The position numbers and the translations under genes were made by a program. The notes under the pieces are model-generated. The model was not told where the DNA came from. It ran no database searches and saw only the letters and a list, made by a program, of their open reading frames with translations. DNA of 64,000 nucleotides, taken from Prosthecobacter vanneervenii (lineage in GTDB: Bacteria > Verrucomicrobiota > Verrucomicrobiia > Verrucomicrobiales > Verrucomicrobiaceae). This document shows, piece after piece, positions 55,405-64,000 of the stretch (the stretch's first letter is position 1; every line of letters begins with the position of its first letter). Where the stretch lies: NCBI RefSeq assembly GCF_014203095.1, contig NZ_JACHIG010000008.1, positions 1 through 64,000 on the forward strand, in the 5' to 3' direction.

Positions 55405-57003
55405 TCAAAACTCCGGCGGGCCGTTCAGGTGTTCGCACTTTTCCGGCATGCCGGGAACGAAATCGACCACCTGCTTCTGACTGCGCAGTTTGTCCTGCAA
55501 AGGAGCCAGCGGCACTTTCTGAACCTCGGCATCGGCCTTCAGAGCCATCACAGCGGCGACACCCGCCGCGTGCCCGGTGATCATCCACACGCTCTCCAGC
55601 CGCAGGGTGCAGAAGGCCACATGGCTGTAGCTCGCTGCACCAGGCACCAGCAGGTTCGTGCACTCGGCGGCCTTGGGTGTGAGCGCACGATAAGGTATCT
55701 GGTAAGCATGGCCCATGCGCCAGATGCGCCCTTCATTGACGAACTCGTTTTCATTCAAGGCCATGCGCTGCACATGATGGCAGTCGATAAAGTGGCTGCT
55801 CATGCCAATGCTGTCCGGCTTGCGACGGTCATCCTGCACATCCTGCTGTGTCACGACATACTCGCCGCGCATCCGCCGTGCTTCACGCACGTAGAGCTGA
55901 TAAGGCAGGTTGCCGTTGTCGGCGAATTCCTCTTTGTGCAGCCCCAGGGCTTTCATTTCGTCCCTCACATTCGCCGGCACGGCTTCGTCTGAAGCCAGGA
56001 AGTGCAGCAGGCCGAGTGTGTAATCCATGTGGTCCTGATAAATGAGCGCGCGCTGTGCGTAGCTGGCATCGGGCCAGTCAAACTGACCGCCGAAATGTCC
56101 CAGGGAGTAAATGGCGGATTGCTTGTTGTTCAGCTCGAATTTGCCATTGCGCCGTTTGTAGAGGTCCAGAATGTCCGCGAGCTTCACCGGCTTTTTCTGC
56201 TGTGCCTGATCGCGAAACCAACCTGCGAGAAGAGCATAACGTTTTGCGCCGTAATGCCGCGGTGCGGGAATGGGCACCTGCAGCTTGGGGTCCTTAGCCA
56301 CGGTAAGACGGAAATTGTAGTTCATCGGAGCACGATGAGCGTCGCCCTCATGCAAATCCTTGGCCCACGCGCTGATGCCGGGCAGCAGCTTGCCGGCCTC
56401 ATCCACTGTCCGTGCCTGACGCGGTGTTTTGTCAAAGCGCACTCCCGCAGCCTCTTCTCCAAATTCCGCCTTCGACTCCCTCCCCACGGCATATTTCACT
56501 CCGGCACGCGCCATCAGGTCCCCCTCATAGCCTGCATCAATAAACACTTTCGCCTTCAACTGGGTGCCATCGGTGAGCGTTATTGAAGTGATGCGTGCGC
56601 CGTCTTTGGCCACCGCATCCACCGAAGCGCTAAAGCGCACTTGCACGCCCGCTTCACGCAGCATGTCGAGATAGATTTTTTCAGCCACGCTGGATTCAAA
56701 GAAATATTCCGGCCCGTCGATCTGATAGACGGCTCCCAGGCGACGGTAAAATTCATCCGCGAAGCCGCCGATGGTCCATTTCAGCATGTGCTCGCTCTCG
56801 GCGGTGTTGATTCCGCTGGTGCTCAGGCCGCCGACGTGTTTCGTCGGCTCAATGAGGACCACCTTCGCGCCTTCCCGCGCCGCCATGATGGAGGCGGCAA
56901 TACCGCAGGGAACACCGCTGTAAACCACGATGTCAGAGGTGATGGAATCCGCCGCGCTGACATGAGCGGAACAGAGCAAAAGGGTGAGAAAGAGTGACTT
57001 CAT
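55405..57003 (-). CDS. Exported FAD-dependent oxidoreductase
   Basis: A 532-residue flavoprotein with an 18-residue signal peptide (SLFLTLLLCSAHVSAAD). FAD binding is through DIVVYSGVPCGIAASIMAAREG and the following IEPTKHVGGLSTSG. Later motifs VFIDAGYEGDLMARAG and FIDCHHVQRMALNENEF match the FAD-dependent oxidoreductase family PF12831. A CTL-like PAAASYSHVAFCTLRLE segment and GHAAGVAAVMAL close it. The family oxidises sugar-alcohol-like or unknown substrates, and the exported form is common here. It starts 10 bases after the stop of the second flavoprotein gene. Confidence 0.86.
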   Translation of the reverse strand: MKSLFLTLLLCSAHVSAADSITSDIVVYSGVPCGIAASIMAAREGAKVVLIEPTKHVGGLSTSGINTAESEHMLKWTIGGFADEFYRRLGAVYQIDGPEYFFESSVAEKIYLDMLREAGVQVRFSASVDAVAKDGARITSITLTDGTQLKAKVFIDAGYEGDLMARAGVKYAVGRESKAEFGEEAAGVRFDKTPRQARTVDEAGKLLPGISAWAKDLHEGDAHRAPMNYNFRLTVAKDPKLQVPIPAPRHYGAKRYALLAGWFRDQAQQKKPVKLADILDLYKRRNGKFELNNKQSAIYSLGHFGGQFDWPDASYAQRALIYQDHMDYTLGLLHFLASDEAVPANVRDEMKALGLHKEEFADNGNLPYQLYVREARRMRGEYVVTQQDVQDDRRKPDSIGMSSHFIDCHHVQRMALNENEFVNEGRIWRMGHAYQIPYRALTPKAAECTNLLVPGAASYSHVAFCTLRLESVWMITGHAAGVAAVMALKADAEVQKVPLAPLQDKLRSQKQVVDFVPGMPEKCEHLNGPPEF

Positions 57004-57013
57004 GGCTGGTGGG

Positions 57014-59059
<2,046 letters not shown>

Positions 59060-59099
59060 GGTTTCCCACAAGGACACCACGCCGCTTTTTTGGACATCA

Positions 59100-60488: not shown

Positions 60489-61202
60489 TCACCATGCCCG
60501 GGCCGCAGCCAGGTTCTTTTTAAACCCCTCACGCACGAGCGAGAGGTCTGAATCCATGGCGATCCAGGTGAACCCCAGCGCCTTGAGCTTCTCCTTGTCA
60601 TCCGCATGGCGCACCAGAATGCCGCAGCCTTTGCCGTGATCTCGGGCGGCTTTGACGATCACATCCACACACTCATCGTAGCTGCGCGCAGCCTTCTGCG
60701 CCTTCAGATCAAACGAGAGGTCTGCAGGCCCGATGAACAAGGCATCAATCCCTTCCACTGCTGCAATCTCGCCTGCCTGATCCACCGCTGATGCCGTCTC
60801 GATCTGCGCCAGAATGATCGGCTTGGGCATCTCGCCCTCCGGCAGCCGCATGCCGTAGCCGTAGGTGCGCACGGTGCGCGAGACACCTCGGTGGCCGCGC
60901 GGCGGATAATAGGCCGTATCCACACAATGCCGTGCCTCCTCCACGGTGTTCACATGCGGCACCATGATCCCATGCGCGCCCCAGTCCAGCACACGGCCGA
61001 TGAGGTCCGCATGCGGCGCGCTTACTCGCACAATCGCGAGCGTGTTGCTGCCGCGCAGCGCGCGGAGCTGGTTCGGCAGCGCGGCCTCCGATTCACAGCC
61101 ATGCTCAAGGTCGATCAAAACCCAGTCAAAGCCGCACTCCGCCGCCAGCTCAGTGACCGCAGGAGAACCGATGGAGAGAAAAGTGCCGATGTGTGTTTTC
61201 AT
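60489..61202 (-). CDS. HpcH/HpaI-family aldolase
   Basis: A 237-residue class II pyruvate aldolase. DWVLIDLEHG holds D31 and H34; R58 lies in VRVSAPHAD; the metal ligands are E134 in QIETASAV and D160 in FIGPADLS. These are the family hallmarks. It cleaves 2-keto-4-hydroxy or 2-keto-3-deoxy acids to pyruvate and an aldehyde. The first codon overlaps the kinase stop codon by ATGA (61199-61202). A kinase plus aldolase plus BASS transporter suggests a dedicated sugar-acid route, not the homoprotocatechuate path of E. coli HpaI; no aromatic-degradation genes are present. Confidence 0.92.
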   Translation of the reverse strand: MKTHIGTFLSIGSPAVTELAAECGFDWVLIDLEHGCESEAALPNQLRALRGSNTLAIVRVSAPHADLIGRVLDWGAHGIMVPHVNTVEEARHCVDTAYYPPRGHRGVSRTVRTYGYGMRLPEGEMPKPIILAQIETASAVDQAGEIAAVEGIDALFIGPADLSFDLKAQKAARSYDECVDVIVKAARDHGKGCGILVRHADDKEKLKALGFTWIAMDSDLSLVREGFKKNLAAARAW

Positions 61203-62269
61203 GATTCAAGAATGTCGATGTCGCTGCCCTCGCGCAAGCCCCGCAGCGCCAGCGCCAGACGTGCGTGGGTAAATTCGCGCAGCGTCCCCCCGTTGGTGCC
61301 CGAAGAGATCAGAAAGAAACCGTCGTCACGGTCAAAGTACCCCGCGCCAACACGGATCACCGCCTTGACGATCATGTTCCGCAGCAGATGCAGCCAGAAG
61401 CGCCGCAGATGATTTTCCGGCAGTCCACGCAGGCCCTGATAGCCCTCAAAAGCACGCCGCAGAAAAAAGTGATCATGAAAGCAGGCGAGCAGCGAGAGAT
61501 CATCCATGGGATCGCCGCTGATGGCGTCATCGAAATCAATAAAAGCGGCAATCGCGTCGGCCTGACCGAGGATGTTCCAGAGAGCCAGGTCCTTGTGCAC
61601 CAGGCAGCCGACTTTCAGATCTAGCAGAGCCCGATGTCTTTCGATCTCTGCCAGAATTTCATCGCTCTGCTTCTCGGAAAGGAAGCCTCTTGAAACAAGA
61701 AAGGCCAGATGCTGATCCAGCCGCAGGTAGAAGTAGTCCGCATACGTCGCATGGCAGCCCTGCAGGGACTCATCCAGCACGCCAAATCCGGGAAACACAA
61801 TCTGCTGCCACCGCGCCACCGCCGCCCCGATGTCAAAAGCGACTTTCGGAACATCGAGGCTGCCGAGCTTGAACCAGTGGTTCAGATCAAGTGCTGGAAT
61901 GCGCTCCAGTGCCTGCCACGCAAAAGACACCCGCCTGCGTGTGGCATCGCATGCATGCACGCATGGCGTGTGCACTCCGACAGCGCGCACTCGCTCCATC
62001 AACTCGGACTCCACCGCCAGATGCCCGTCTTTCTCAGGCCCGTTTTCCACACGAATAAACATCGCAGTCCCGTCCACCTCGGCATTCCAGGTGAGATGAT
62101 TCCCCTGCCCTGCACCCGCGCTCAAAACCACAGATTTCGCATTAAGCTGATGCAACAGCGCCTCGCGAAGCTGCTGCTCCATTTCGGCATCCACCCTACC
62201 TCGCACCTGCGTGCCGTGAAACGCCGCAGGCCGATCACATTTCCAGTAATAGATGTCTCGGCGGCTCAT
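61199..62269 (-). CDS. APH-fold small-molecule kinase
   Basis: A 356-residue aminoglycoside-phosphotransferase-fold kinase. The N-lobe runs to about 120. Catalytic H225-x-D227 with N232 (VHKDLALWN) and the metal Asp in FIDFDDAI (D245, D247) are well-spaced. The Brenner-type motif and the DP(M)DD segment that follows fit the homoserine/hydroxy-acid kinase part of the family rather than antibiotic-resistance enzymes. It starts 2 bases after the BASS stop codon and overlaps the aldolase start. The open frame continues far upstream, but that part lies antisense in frame within the transporter gene and is not coding. Substrate unknown. Confidence 0.85.
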   Translation of the reverse strand: MSRRDIYYWKCDRPAAFHGTQVRGRVDAEMEQQLREALLHQLNAKSVVLSAGAGQGNHLTWNAEVDGTAMFIRVENGPEKDGHLAVESELMERVRAVGVHTPCVHACDATRRRVSFAWQALERIPALDLNHWFKLGSLDVPKVAFDIGAAVARWQQIVFPGFGVLDESLQGCHATYADYFYLRLDQHLAFLVSRGFLSEKQSDEILAEIERHRALLDLKVGCLVHKDLALWNILGQADAIAAFIDFDDAISGDPMDDLSLLACFHDHFFLRRAFEGYQGLRGLPENHLRRFWLHLLRNMIVKAVIRVGAGYFDRDDGFFLISSGTNGGTLREFTHARLALALRGLREGSDIDILES

Positions 62270-62271
62270 GA

Positions 62272-63204
62272 TCACGCATCCGGAGTCCGGCGCTTCCACC
62301 ATGCGGCCATGAGGCCGCCCACGATGTTTTGCATCACTCCGCTGAAGACAGCAGCAGCGGCGGCCAGCGGCAGCGCGGGAAAGTGCTCGCGCGCCAGCGA
62401 GGCGGCCATCCCCCCATTTTGCATGCCCACCTCGATGCTCACGGTGCGGGCCACAGATTCCGGATAACGCAGTACCTTGGGCACGAGGTAGCCCACCACA
62501 AAACCGATGACGTGCAAAAGAAACGCCGCGAGGGCCAGCCGGCCAAAATGGGCCGAGATGGCATCGGCACTGGCGGCCACGATGCCCCCGCTGACAAAGG
62601 TGAAGGCCAGCACCGCAATGGTGGGACCACAGGCTCCGATCTGATCTGCCGTGCGTGGCATCTTCCAGCGAATGAGCACCCCCAGCACGACGGGTGCCAC
62701 CGTGAGTTGCAAGGCCGAAAGGCACAGCCCCCAGGCATCCACCGGGACGTATTTGCCAGCCAGTGTGCTGGTCCACATGGGTGTGAAAAAGAAGGCCAGC
62801 AGCGTGGATGCCAGCGTGAGCACCACAGACAGCGCCACATTCGCCCGCGCGAGGTAGCTGATCATGTTGGACGCCATGCCTCCTGGACAACTGGCCACGA
62901 GAATGATGCCCACGGCGAGCCCGGGATCGAGATTCAAGACCTTTGCCACCAGCCACCCGGTAAGAGGCATGATGGTGTACTGCGCCACAAACCCCAGCGC
63001 CACACTGCCCGGCATGCGCGCGATGGCTTTGAAATCATCCACGCTCAACGTCAGCCCCATGCCAAGCATAGAGGCCGCGAGAGACCAAAAGATCCATGGC
63101 TTGTCAAACCACAGCATGGTCTGCGGCTTGAAGAAGGCGAGAACCGCAAGGCTCACGAGCCACATGGGATAGAGATTGTTAAACCAGTTGAAGAAGCGAA
63201 TCAT
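62272..63204 (-). CDS. BASS-family (bile acid:sodium symporter-like) transporter
   Basis: A 310-residue membrane protein with about nine to ten helices. It matches the bile acid:Na+ symporter family: LGMGLTLSVDDFKAIARM, ASCPGGMASNMISYLARANVALSV, and the late SIEVGMQNGGMAASLAREHF, with the conserved ENG/QNGG crossover. Bacterial relatives take up bile acids, pantoate, pyruvate or other organic acids with sodium. The gene starts about 33 bases after the partial sialidase-like gene and is followed 2 bases later by the kinase. Confidence 0.9.
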   Translation of the reverse strand: MIRFFNWFNNLYPMWLVSLAVLAFFKPQTMLWFDKPWIFWSLAASMLGMGLTLSVDDFKAIARMPGSVALGFVAQYTIMPLTGWLVAKVLNLDPGLAVGIILVASCPGGMASNMISYLARANVALSVVLTLASTLLAFFFTPMWTSTLAGKYVPVDAWGLCLSALQLTVAPVVLGVLIRWKMPRTADQIGACGPTIAVLAFTFVSGGIVAASADAISAHFGRLALAAFLLHVIGFVVGYLVPKVLRYPESVARTVSIEVGMQNGGMAASLAREHFPALPLAAAAAVFSGVMQNIVGGLMAAWWKRRTPDA

Positions 63205-63237: not shown

Positions 63238-64000
63238 TCAAGGATGAAGAGAACGCAGCCCGGCACCCGAGCCGCTGATCAGCAGCACCAGTTTTTTAAA
63301 ATGGAGCTGCTCACCCTTGATGGCTTCCTTACGGTACAAGTTCACACGATTGATGTCACCCGGGAACAGCTGCGTCTCCGACACTTCGACTTTGGCGAAA
63401 CCTGCGCCTTTCAGAGCCTCTTCCTGGCAGGCAGCCCCAGGTCGCGAGGCGGGTGTCAGCGCGTAAAGCGTTCCCGGCGTAACAACTTCCGCTTCGATAT
63501 TTTCAATGCTGGTGCGCAGAAACGGCAACCCCCGCACCTGCTCTGGCATGGCCTCGATCACATAATCCCGGTCTGTGAAAAGTCTGCACCCAACCTTCAT
63601 CTCCGCCGCTTCTACGGAAGCGGGTGCAGGCCAGACGATGCGTTTCTTCCCTTGCTGCGCTTCAAAACCACCCACTTCCTCCAGCTTTCCAAACATGATG
63701 CGCTCCTTGCGACTGGCATCCGTATCGCCTTGGGTCACTACGAGCCAGATCACGCCGTCATGCTCGTGAAAGGTTGGGTACTGGAAGGACTTCGGCGTTT
63801 CAAAGCGGTATTTGCGCTCCCAGATTTTGCCATCGCGAGAGACATCCACATTGAACACACTTCGGCTCACGCCCTGGCTGCGCGTGGACTCCTGCCACCC
63901 CAGATAGTAGATGCCGCCAAACTTGTCGAAGGTCGGCTTGGAGTTGGTGCCATTGAGCACGACCGGCAGCGGCTTGCCGGTGCTCCATTTCCTGCCATCT
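63238..64000 (-). CDS. Sialidase/BNR-like protein (5' end beyond window)
   Basis: A partial gene, at least 253 codons, open to the right edge. The last visible upstream codons read DGRKWSTGKPLP, an Asp-box-like piece, and SRDGKIWERKYRF is a second Asp box. GGIYYLGWQEST and FQYPTFHEHDGVIWLVVTQGD fit a six-bladed sialidase-type propeller. After the propeller the last 100 residues form a different domain (VIWPAPASVEAAEMK-like region and onward). The family includes sialidases and many non-enzymatic propellers. The missing N-terminus prevents a firm call. Confidence 0.65.
   Translation of the reverse strand, partial: DGRKWSTGKPLPVVLNGTNSKPTFDKFGGIYYLGWQESTRSQGVSRSVFNVDVSRDGKIWERKYRFETPKSFQYPTFHEHDGVIWLVVTQGDTDASRKERIMFGKLEEVGGFEAQQGKKRIVWPAPASVEAAEMKVGCRLFTDRDYVIEAMPEQVRGLPFLRTSIENIEAEVVTPGTLYALTPASRPGAACQEEALKGAGFAKVEVSETQLFPGDINRVNLYRKEAIKGEQLHFKKLVLLISGSGAGLRSLHP

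Follow-up and report, generated by a model that had tools for sequence, protein, structure and literature searches.

Gene content of the locus

The window, i.e. the whole stretch of DNA that was analysed, comprises the initial 64 kb of contig C8; the genome has a size of 6.66 Mb. Close to its end, three genes on the minus strand code for a transporter of the BASS family, an APH-fold kinase and an HpcH/HpaI class II aldolase, together called the trio hereafter (Table 1). The ATG of the kinase gene lies 2 bases after the TGA stop codon of the BASS gene, and the kinase stop codon and the aldolase ATG share 4 bases (ATGA). The first-pass annotation, according to which the three genes overlap or sit within 2 bases of each other, was thus confirmed. 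Another gene of the same strand ends at position 63238, 33 bp upstream of the BASS gene, and is cut by the window edge. At full length (C8:63241-65922), this gene has 894 codons and codes for a sialidase-like propeller protein with a hydrophobic N-terminus resembling a signal peptide, and its product is thus predicted to be secreted. A gene of the LacI family is found further upstream on the opposite strand (C8:67504-68547). The upstream region also includes, about 7-15 kb from the trio, KDG-kinase-like and KDPG-aldolase genes and a gene for a further BNR protein with two propellers (L171:7375-14807; G000 C8:70374-77806).

Downstream of the aldolase gene, the window contains YlbF-like, DUF4886 and FAD oxidoreductase genes. 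The last of these (55405-59080, after the DUF4886 gene) code for two adjacent FAD-dependent oxidoreductases (PF12831), one of which harbours a golvesin C-terminal domain. These downstream genes, including the FAD oxidoreductase/DUF4886 run, are kept beside the trio in close relatives only and were not retained as members of the module.

Table 1. Features of the trio and of the adjoining propeller gene in the window
Feature	Position	Strand	Characteristics
BASS/SBF-family sodium symporter, ASBT_NM/PanS type (organic anion importer)	62272-63204	minus	310 aa, PF01758 140.8 bits
APH-fold small-molecule kinase, distinct family, N-terminal motif YYWKCDRPAAFHGT	61199-62269	minus	356 aa, PF01636 50.4 bits
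HpcH/HpaI class II pyruvate aldolase	60489-61202	minus	237 aa, PF03328 120.6 bits
Kinase catalytic loop HKDLALWN, residues 225-232	61574..61597	minus	Catalytic His, Asp, Asn invariant in 20 homologues
Kinase metal-binding motif IDFDD, residues 244-248	61526..61540	minus	I244, D245, D247, D248 invariant in homologue alignment
Sialidase-like (BNR_2) multi-domain protein, predicted to be secreted, C-terminal part	63238..64000	minus	PF13088 123.6 bits on full protein

Transporter, kinase and aldolase

The transporter was assigned to the BASS/SBF family on the basis of its Pfam match and its alignment with ASBT_NM, which includes the conserved sodium-site segments CPGG (residue 106) and EVGMQN (residue 258). 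Its score with the PanS equivalog profile NF047939, 218.6 bits, is below the cut-off of 400.

The PF01636 score of the kinase exceeds the gathering score of 23.2 bits and places it in the APH phosphotransferase superfamily. Residues H225, D227 and N232 of the HxD...N loop and D245 and D247 of the DxD metal motif are invariant in the alignment of 20 homologues, which also revealed a conserved N-terminus specific to this family. Foldseek analysis of an AlphaFold2 model (pLDDT 88) identified the APH fold, with the hygromycin kinase APH(4)-Ia as the top match. However, the closest solved structures, APH(4), YtaA, FN3K and homoserine kinase, have similar scores, and the kinase shares ~15% identity with each of them. 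None of the NCBIfam resistance-APH profiles reached its cut-off, the best scores being 23.2 bits for a cut-off of 620 and 21.6 bits for a cut-off of 625. Clustering with antibiotic kinases, the alternative considered in the first-pass annotation, was therefore not observed, and judging from these comparisons the protein is not an antibiotic kinase. Its fold, catalytic motifs and metabolic context are those of APH-fold metabolic kinases such as homoserine kinase II, FN3K, YtaA and the LvaA-type hydroxyacyl kinases, from which its low identity to the solved members and its own N-terminal motif set it apart.

In the aldolase, the metal-binding and catalytic residues H34, R59, Q133, E135 and D161 are invariant in 20 homologues and match those of GarL, which together with the Pfam match identifies an HpcH/HpaI class II enzyme. 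GarL, YfaU/RhmA and HpaI have the same fold and all of these residues in common with it. In contrast with those enzymes, it is accompanied by a kinase as well as by sialidase-like propellers, and it scores at 119-156 bits with the GarL, HpaI and KDR aldolase equivalog profiles, whose cut-offs are 369-441 bits, being equally distant from all three. With the active site intact and no equivalog closer than the others, aldol cleavage yielding pyruvate is well founded, and the sequence points to no particular substrate. HpcH/HpaI aldolases of known substrate (GarL, YfaU and HpaI) act on unphosphorylated keto acids, and HpcH-type aldolases accept varied small aldehydes; we know of none that acts on C8 or C9 ulosonic acids. 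Genes for paralogues with about 50% identity (L174, L175, L178-L181) lie in other clusters, whose members include cytochrome-type, DUF1501-like and GntR/FCD genes but not the kinase gene. Thus, the aldolase subfamily alone cannot define the pathway.

Conservation of the gene cluster

A scan with one genome per species yielded 174 candidate loci encoding relatives. The records are named as Verrucomicrobia and Planctomycetes, with some metagenome-assembled genomes bearing unlikely names, and the named close relatives are Verrucomicrobiaceae such as Prosthecobacter. Neighbouring genes were called with a heuristic ORF caller of our own. Considering loci with sufficient flanking sequence, the aldolase gene is located at most 1 kb downstream of the kinase gene in 79 of 86, the BASS gene is directly upstream of the kinase gene in 58 of 79, and the full trio is present in 54 of 73. 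The co-occurrence in related genomes for which the first-pass annotation had called was therefore found.

At the level of the family, the kinase is present in 58 of 68 genomes. Among the 67 searched for both proteins, kinase and aldolase are both present in 58 and both absent in nine (Fisher p about 2e-11, a value that ignores shared ancestry and assembly gaps). In phylum-sample genomes from other families, the identity of the kinase drops to 32-39%, and the aldolase gene mostly still adjoins that of the kinase. Six kinase loci have no aldolase neighbour, not counting L082, whose genome encodes a close aldolase elsewhere. Four loci of this kind, L105, L106, L108 and L120, code for kinase homologues with 60-65% identity; their records are labelled Planctomycetaceae, Roseimaritima, Burkholderiales and Hyphomicrobiaceae, and only distant HpcH genes are found elsewhere in those genomes.

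The BASS protein is the least conserved of the trio, frequent but dispensable. It is absent from five kinase-positive family genomes (G009, G015, G035, G048 and G049), and in locus L161 its position is occupied by an ACS-type MFS transporter whose best NCBIfam match is the D-galactonate transporter. Where a replacement is clear, it is of the sugar-acid type. Other transporters encoded nearby are an MFS protein in L128 and an SSS symporter in L167 and L168. The conserved core is the kinase-aldolase pair rather than the trio. The initial proposal that the three genes form a module is supported, with the transporter as its less constant member, which is sometimes replaced.

Two types of inserted genes are not universal and were rejected as members of the module. 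One, between the BASS and kinase genes, has a secreted product of about 290 aa (L034, L050, L006, L014 and L017). The other, between the kinase and aldolase genes (L009:2607-3359 and L016:2606-3358), resembles REP-associated transposases.

Sialidase-like propeller proteins

BNR homologues are encoded in 72 loci and are among the most frequent neighbours, their genes being mostly located one to two genes upstream or two downstream of that of the kinase. In the divergent loci L163, L164, L166 and L167, which lack a BASS gene, stand-alone propellers directly flank the kinase and the aldolase; they have no obvious signal sequence at their start, and a GntR/FCD regulator gene precedes. Of 81 loci, 25 have no detected propeller within 4.5 kb, which is partly due to contig ends. 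Such BNR proteins are a common feature of these phyla; the 6.66 Mb of the window genome gave only 18 BNR_2 matches. The kinase, the aldolase and the sialidase-like propeller make up the stable core, and a LacI-family gene is found in 23 loci. Together, the genes for importer, kinase and aldolase represent a catabolic operon that is conserved in Verrucomicrobiota and Planctomycetota and in which sialidase-like proteins are encoded as well.

The architecture of the BNR proteins varies, with as many as five units (A, M, cap, B and C) in a single protein of up to about 1780 residues. Profile and structure analyses were performed with the B-type propeller of a relative (L134), the window genome carrying the A-type. 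The B-type profile matches GH33 and GH181 sialidases (E about 5e-13 to 1e-12), and the AlphaFold2 model (pLDDT 84) has the six-bladed fold, with sialidases at nearly all top PDB ranks (TM about 0.65-0.72, E down to 4e-13). In the active site of AmGH181 (PMC10067855), the aligned counterparts of E177, R193 and R251 are E218, R234 and R305, with a spacing in the alignment of 16 and then 71 further positions, and Y280 aligns with a Tyr of the Bacteroides sialidase BTSA (4BBW) at the position of the GH33 nucleophile. The A-type propeller of the window genome keeps the same set of Glu, Arg, Arg and Tyr. Thus, the fold, the Glu and two Arg residues are common to these propellers and to the GH33/GH181 sialidases (AmGH181, Amuc_1547; PMC10067855). 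In contrast, the sialidase Arg triad is incomplete, as the Arg of the FRIP motif is replaced (GMIIGM or WQGIP); the His-Gln of GH181 is not present, with Tyr280 (SYPDG) invariant in its place; and the propellers are often fused in tandem with further ones. Given the loss of the FRIP Arg, the propeller cannot be regarded as a standard sialidase, and the sugar that it cuts may be a different one. The residues retained suggest that the enzyme acts on a sugar whose anomeric carbon carries a carboxylate.

Other loci of the window genome combine similar genes. On contig C15, a DHDPS/NanA-family gene directly precedes a strong BNR_2 gene, with more BNR genes downstream (L169:5835-8084; G000 C15:93834-96083), which makes it a second propeller and pyruvate-aldolase cluster in this genome. 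RraA-like aldolase genes are found beside BNR genes on contigs C1 and C5 (L170:6212-10148 and L173:7926-9936), and C1 also has an HpcH paralogue gene two genes from a BNR gene. That BNR genes adjoin both DHDPS/NanA-family and RraA-like aldolase genes suggests that the association of a propeller with a pyruvate aldolase is a recurring design.

Proposed pathway and substrate

The operon probably releases, imports and degrades a sialic-acid-like sugar. No dehydrogenase, other oxidoreductase or dehydratase is a recurrent neighbour in the kinase loci, so the substrate is probably a 2-keto-3-deoxy (ulosonic) acid by the time it enters the cell; an acid of this kind would be the product of a sialidase-clan enzyme. 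We favour, with a little short of an even chance of being correct, an operon under LacI control that serves the use of a glycosidically bound ulosonic acid, preferably Kdo or Kdn. The secreted propeller would release the acid, and its anion would be imported by the BASS symporter or, elsewhere, the ACS-type MFS transporter. The aldolase would then split it into pyruvate and a free aldose, and phosphorylation by the kinase would trap the aldose for central metabolism. As the known HpcH/HpaI aldolases use unphosphorylated acids, cleavage prior to phosphorylation of the aldose is at least as likely as the reverse order. The first-pass annotation considered that the substrate cannot be read from the sequence; the propeller protein beyond the window edge makes it possible to narrow down its class, though not to the exact sugar.

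The ManNAc-6-P epimerase NanE was found in 0 of 19 genomes, a non-homologous epimerase being possible, and NanA lyase was above its cut-off in 0 of 67 family genomes. With neither NanE nor a bona fide NanA, canonical use of Neu5Ac is unlikely, and we rejected it; Kdo or Kdn fit better. KdsD is above its cut-off in the window genome. Kdo would require nothing further, because KdsD forms ribulose 5-phosphate from arabinose 5-phosphate. For Kdn, a mannose-6-phosphate isomerase would be the sole addition, for which the window genome gave no match with PMI_typeI_C, the sole profile used, other types of this isomerase being possible. A fully specified Kdo-type operon seems unlikely as it stands: the propellers would release Kdo (or 5-O-methyl-Kdo or Dha) from algal, plant or bacterial glycans, the aldolase would yield pyruvate and D-arabinose, and the kinase would generate D-arabinose 5-phosphate as the substrate of KdsD. 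Such 2-keto sugar acids occur in the scales and thecae of green algae (PMC10762512), from which lake bacteria could plausibly obtain them.

Alternative interpretations

Phosphorylation might instead come first, as the first-pass annotation had it, with an imported 2-keto-3-deoxy acid being phosphorylated and then split in an Entner-Doudoroff-like manner, with pyruvate plus an aldose or triose phosphate as the products. KDG kinase followed by KDPG aldolase is a known reaction order, a pair of genes for it is located 10 kb upstream in the same genome, and the transporter-kinase-aldolase gene order and the obligate pairing of kinase and aldolase agree with it. However, the order of reactions cannot be deduced from that of genes, and the preference of the characterized HpcH/HpaI enzymes for unphosphorylated acids makes this version somewhat unlikely. 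The substrate could also be a KDG-type acid derived from hexuronates, in which case the propellers would be lyases or hydrolases that attack an acidic polysaccharide and the trio would be a variant form of the KDG branch. Transporters of the sugar-acid type, the KDG- and KDR-type aldolases of the HpcH family, and the KDG kinase and KDPG aldolase genes within 10 kb in the window genome are consistent with this proposal, which we nevertheless regard as distinctly unlikely: KDG/KDPG genes neighbour the kinase gene in only five loci, no uronate isomerase or dehydratase is linked, and the propellers match sialidases, not lyases.

The tolerance of HpcH-type aldolases for small aldehydes would accommodate (keto)pantoate or another small branched acid of the hydroxy or keto type, with the propellers as coincidental neighbours. 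Among transporters, PanS/ASBT_NM, for which pantoate is the solved ligand (PMC10645422), come closest to the BASS protein. However, the BASS protein misses the PanS cut-off and is dispensable and replaced, and propellers recur directly beside kinase and aldolase in very divergent loci without BASS, so that this interpretation is improbable. It is more improbable still, to the point of being hardly credible, that the kinase is a resistance or detoxification enzyme beside unrelated genes. Its APH fold and the APH(4)-Ia match would speak for such a role, against which stand the similar scores with FN3K, homoserine kinase and YtaA at equally low identity, the very low scores with all NCBIfam APH profiles, its obligate partnership with the aldolase and its vertical-looking presence in the family.

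Relation to known systems

We found no described gene set matching this operon in the literature searched, most subscription papers being outside its reach; similarly, nothing matched the combination with an APH-fold kinase that the first-pass annotation had called undescribed. The closest parallel is the nan operon for sialic acid (NanH, NanT/SiaT, NanA, NanK and NanE), with the same order of functions: sialidase-type release, import of the acid, a pyruvate lyase and a sugar kinase. In addition, the GntR/FCD regulators of the divergent loci resemble, among others, the nan regulator NanR. In contrast, the trio operon has a class II HpcH lyase where nan has the class I enzyme NanA, an APH-fold rather than a ROK kinase, a BASS or ACS-MFS importer, and no NanE in the genomes searched for it. 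By this analogy, the operon is best read as a functional counterpart of nan in which unrelated enzymes may largely fill the transport, lyase and kinase roles. Pathways with DUF1537 four-carbon acid sugar kinases and OtnC-type aldolases likewise pair a kinase and an aldolase for acid sugars, with another kinase fold and another aldolase family.

Kinases of such loci must not be annotated as aminoglycoside phosphotransferases. Our findings point to a route for acidic sugars that is widespread among Verrucomicrobiota and Planctomycetota of freshwater and soil, has apparently not been described before and involves a family of APH-fold kinases and a subfamily of HpcH aldolases of unassigned substrate, and they provide a short list of testable substrates. 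To our knowledge, Kdo aldolase is an old enzyme activity without an assigned gene; if the Kdo reading is true, it would get one. More generally, the route would show that the logic of nan has been built again from unrelated enzymes.
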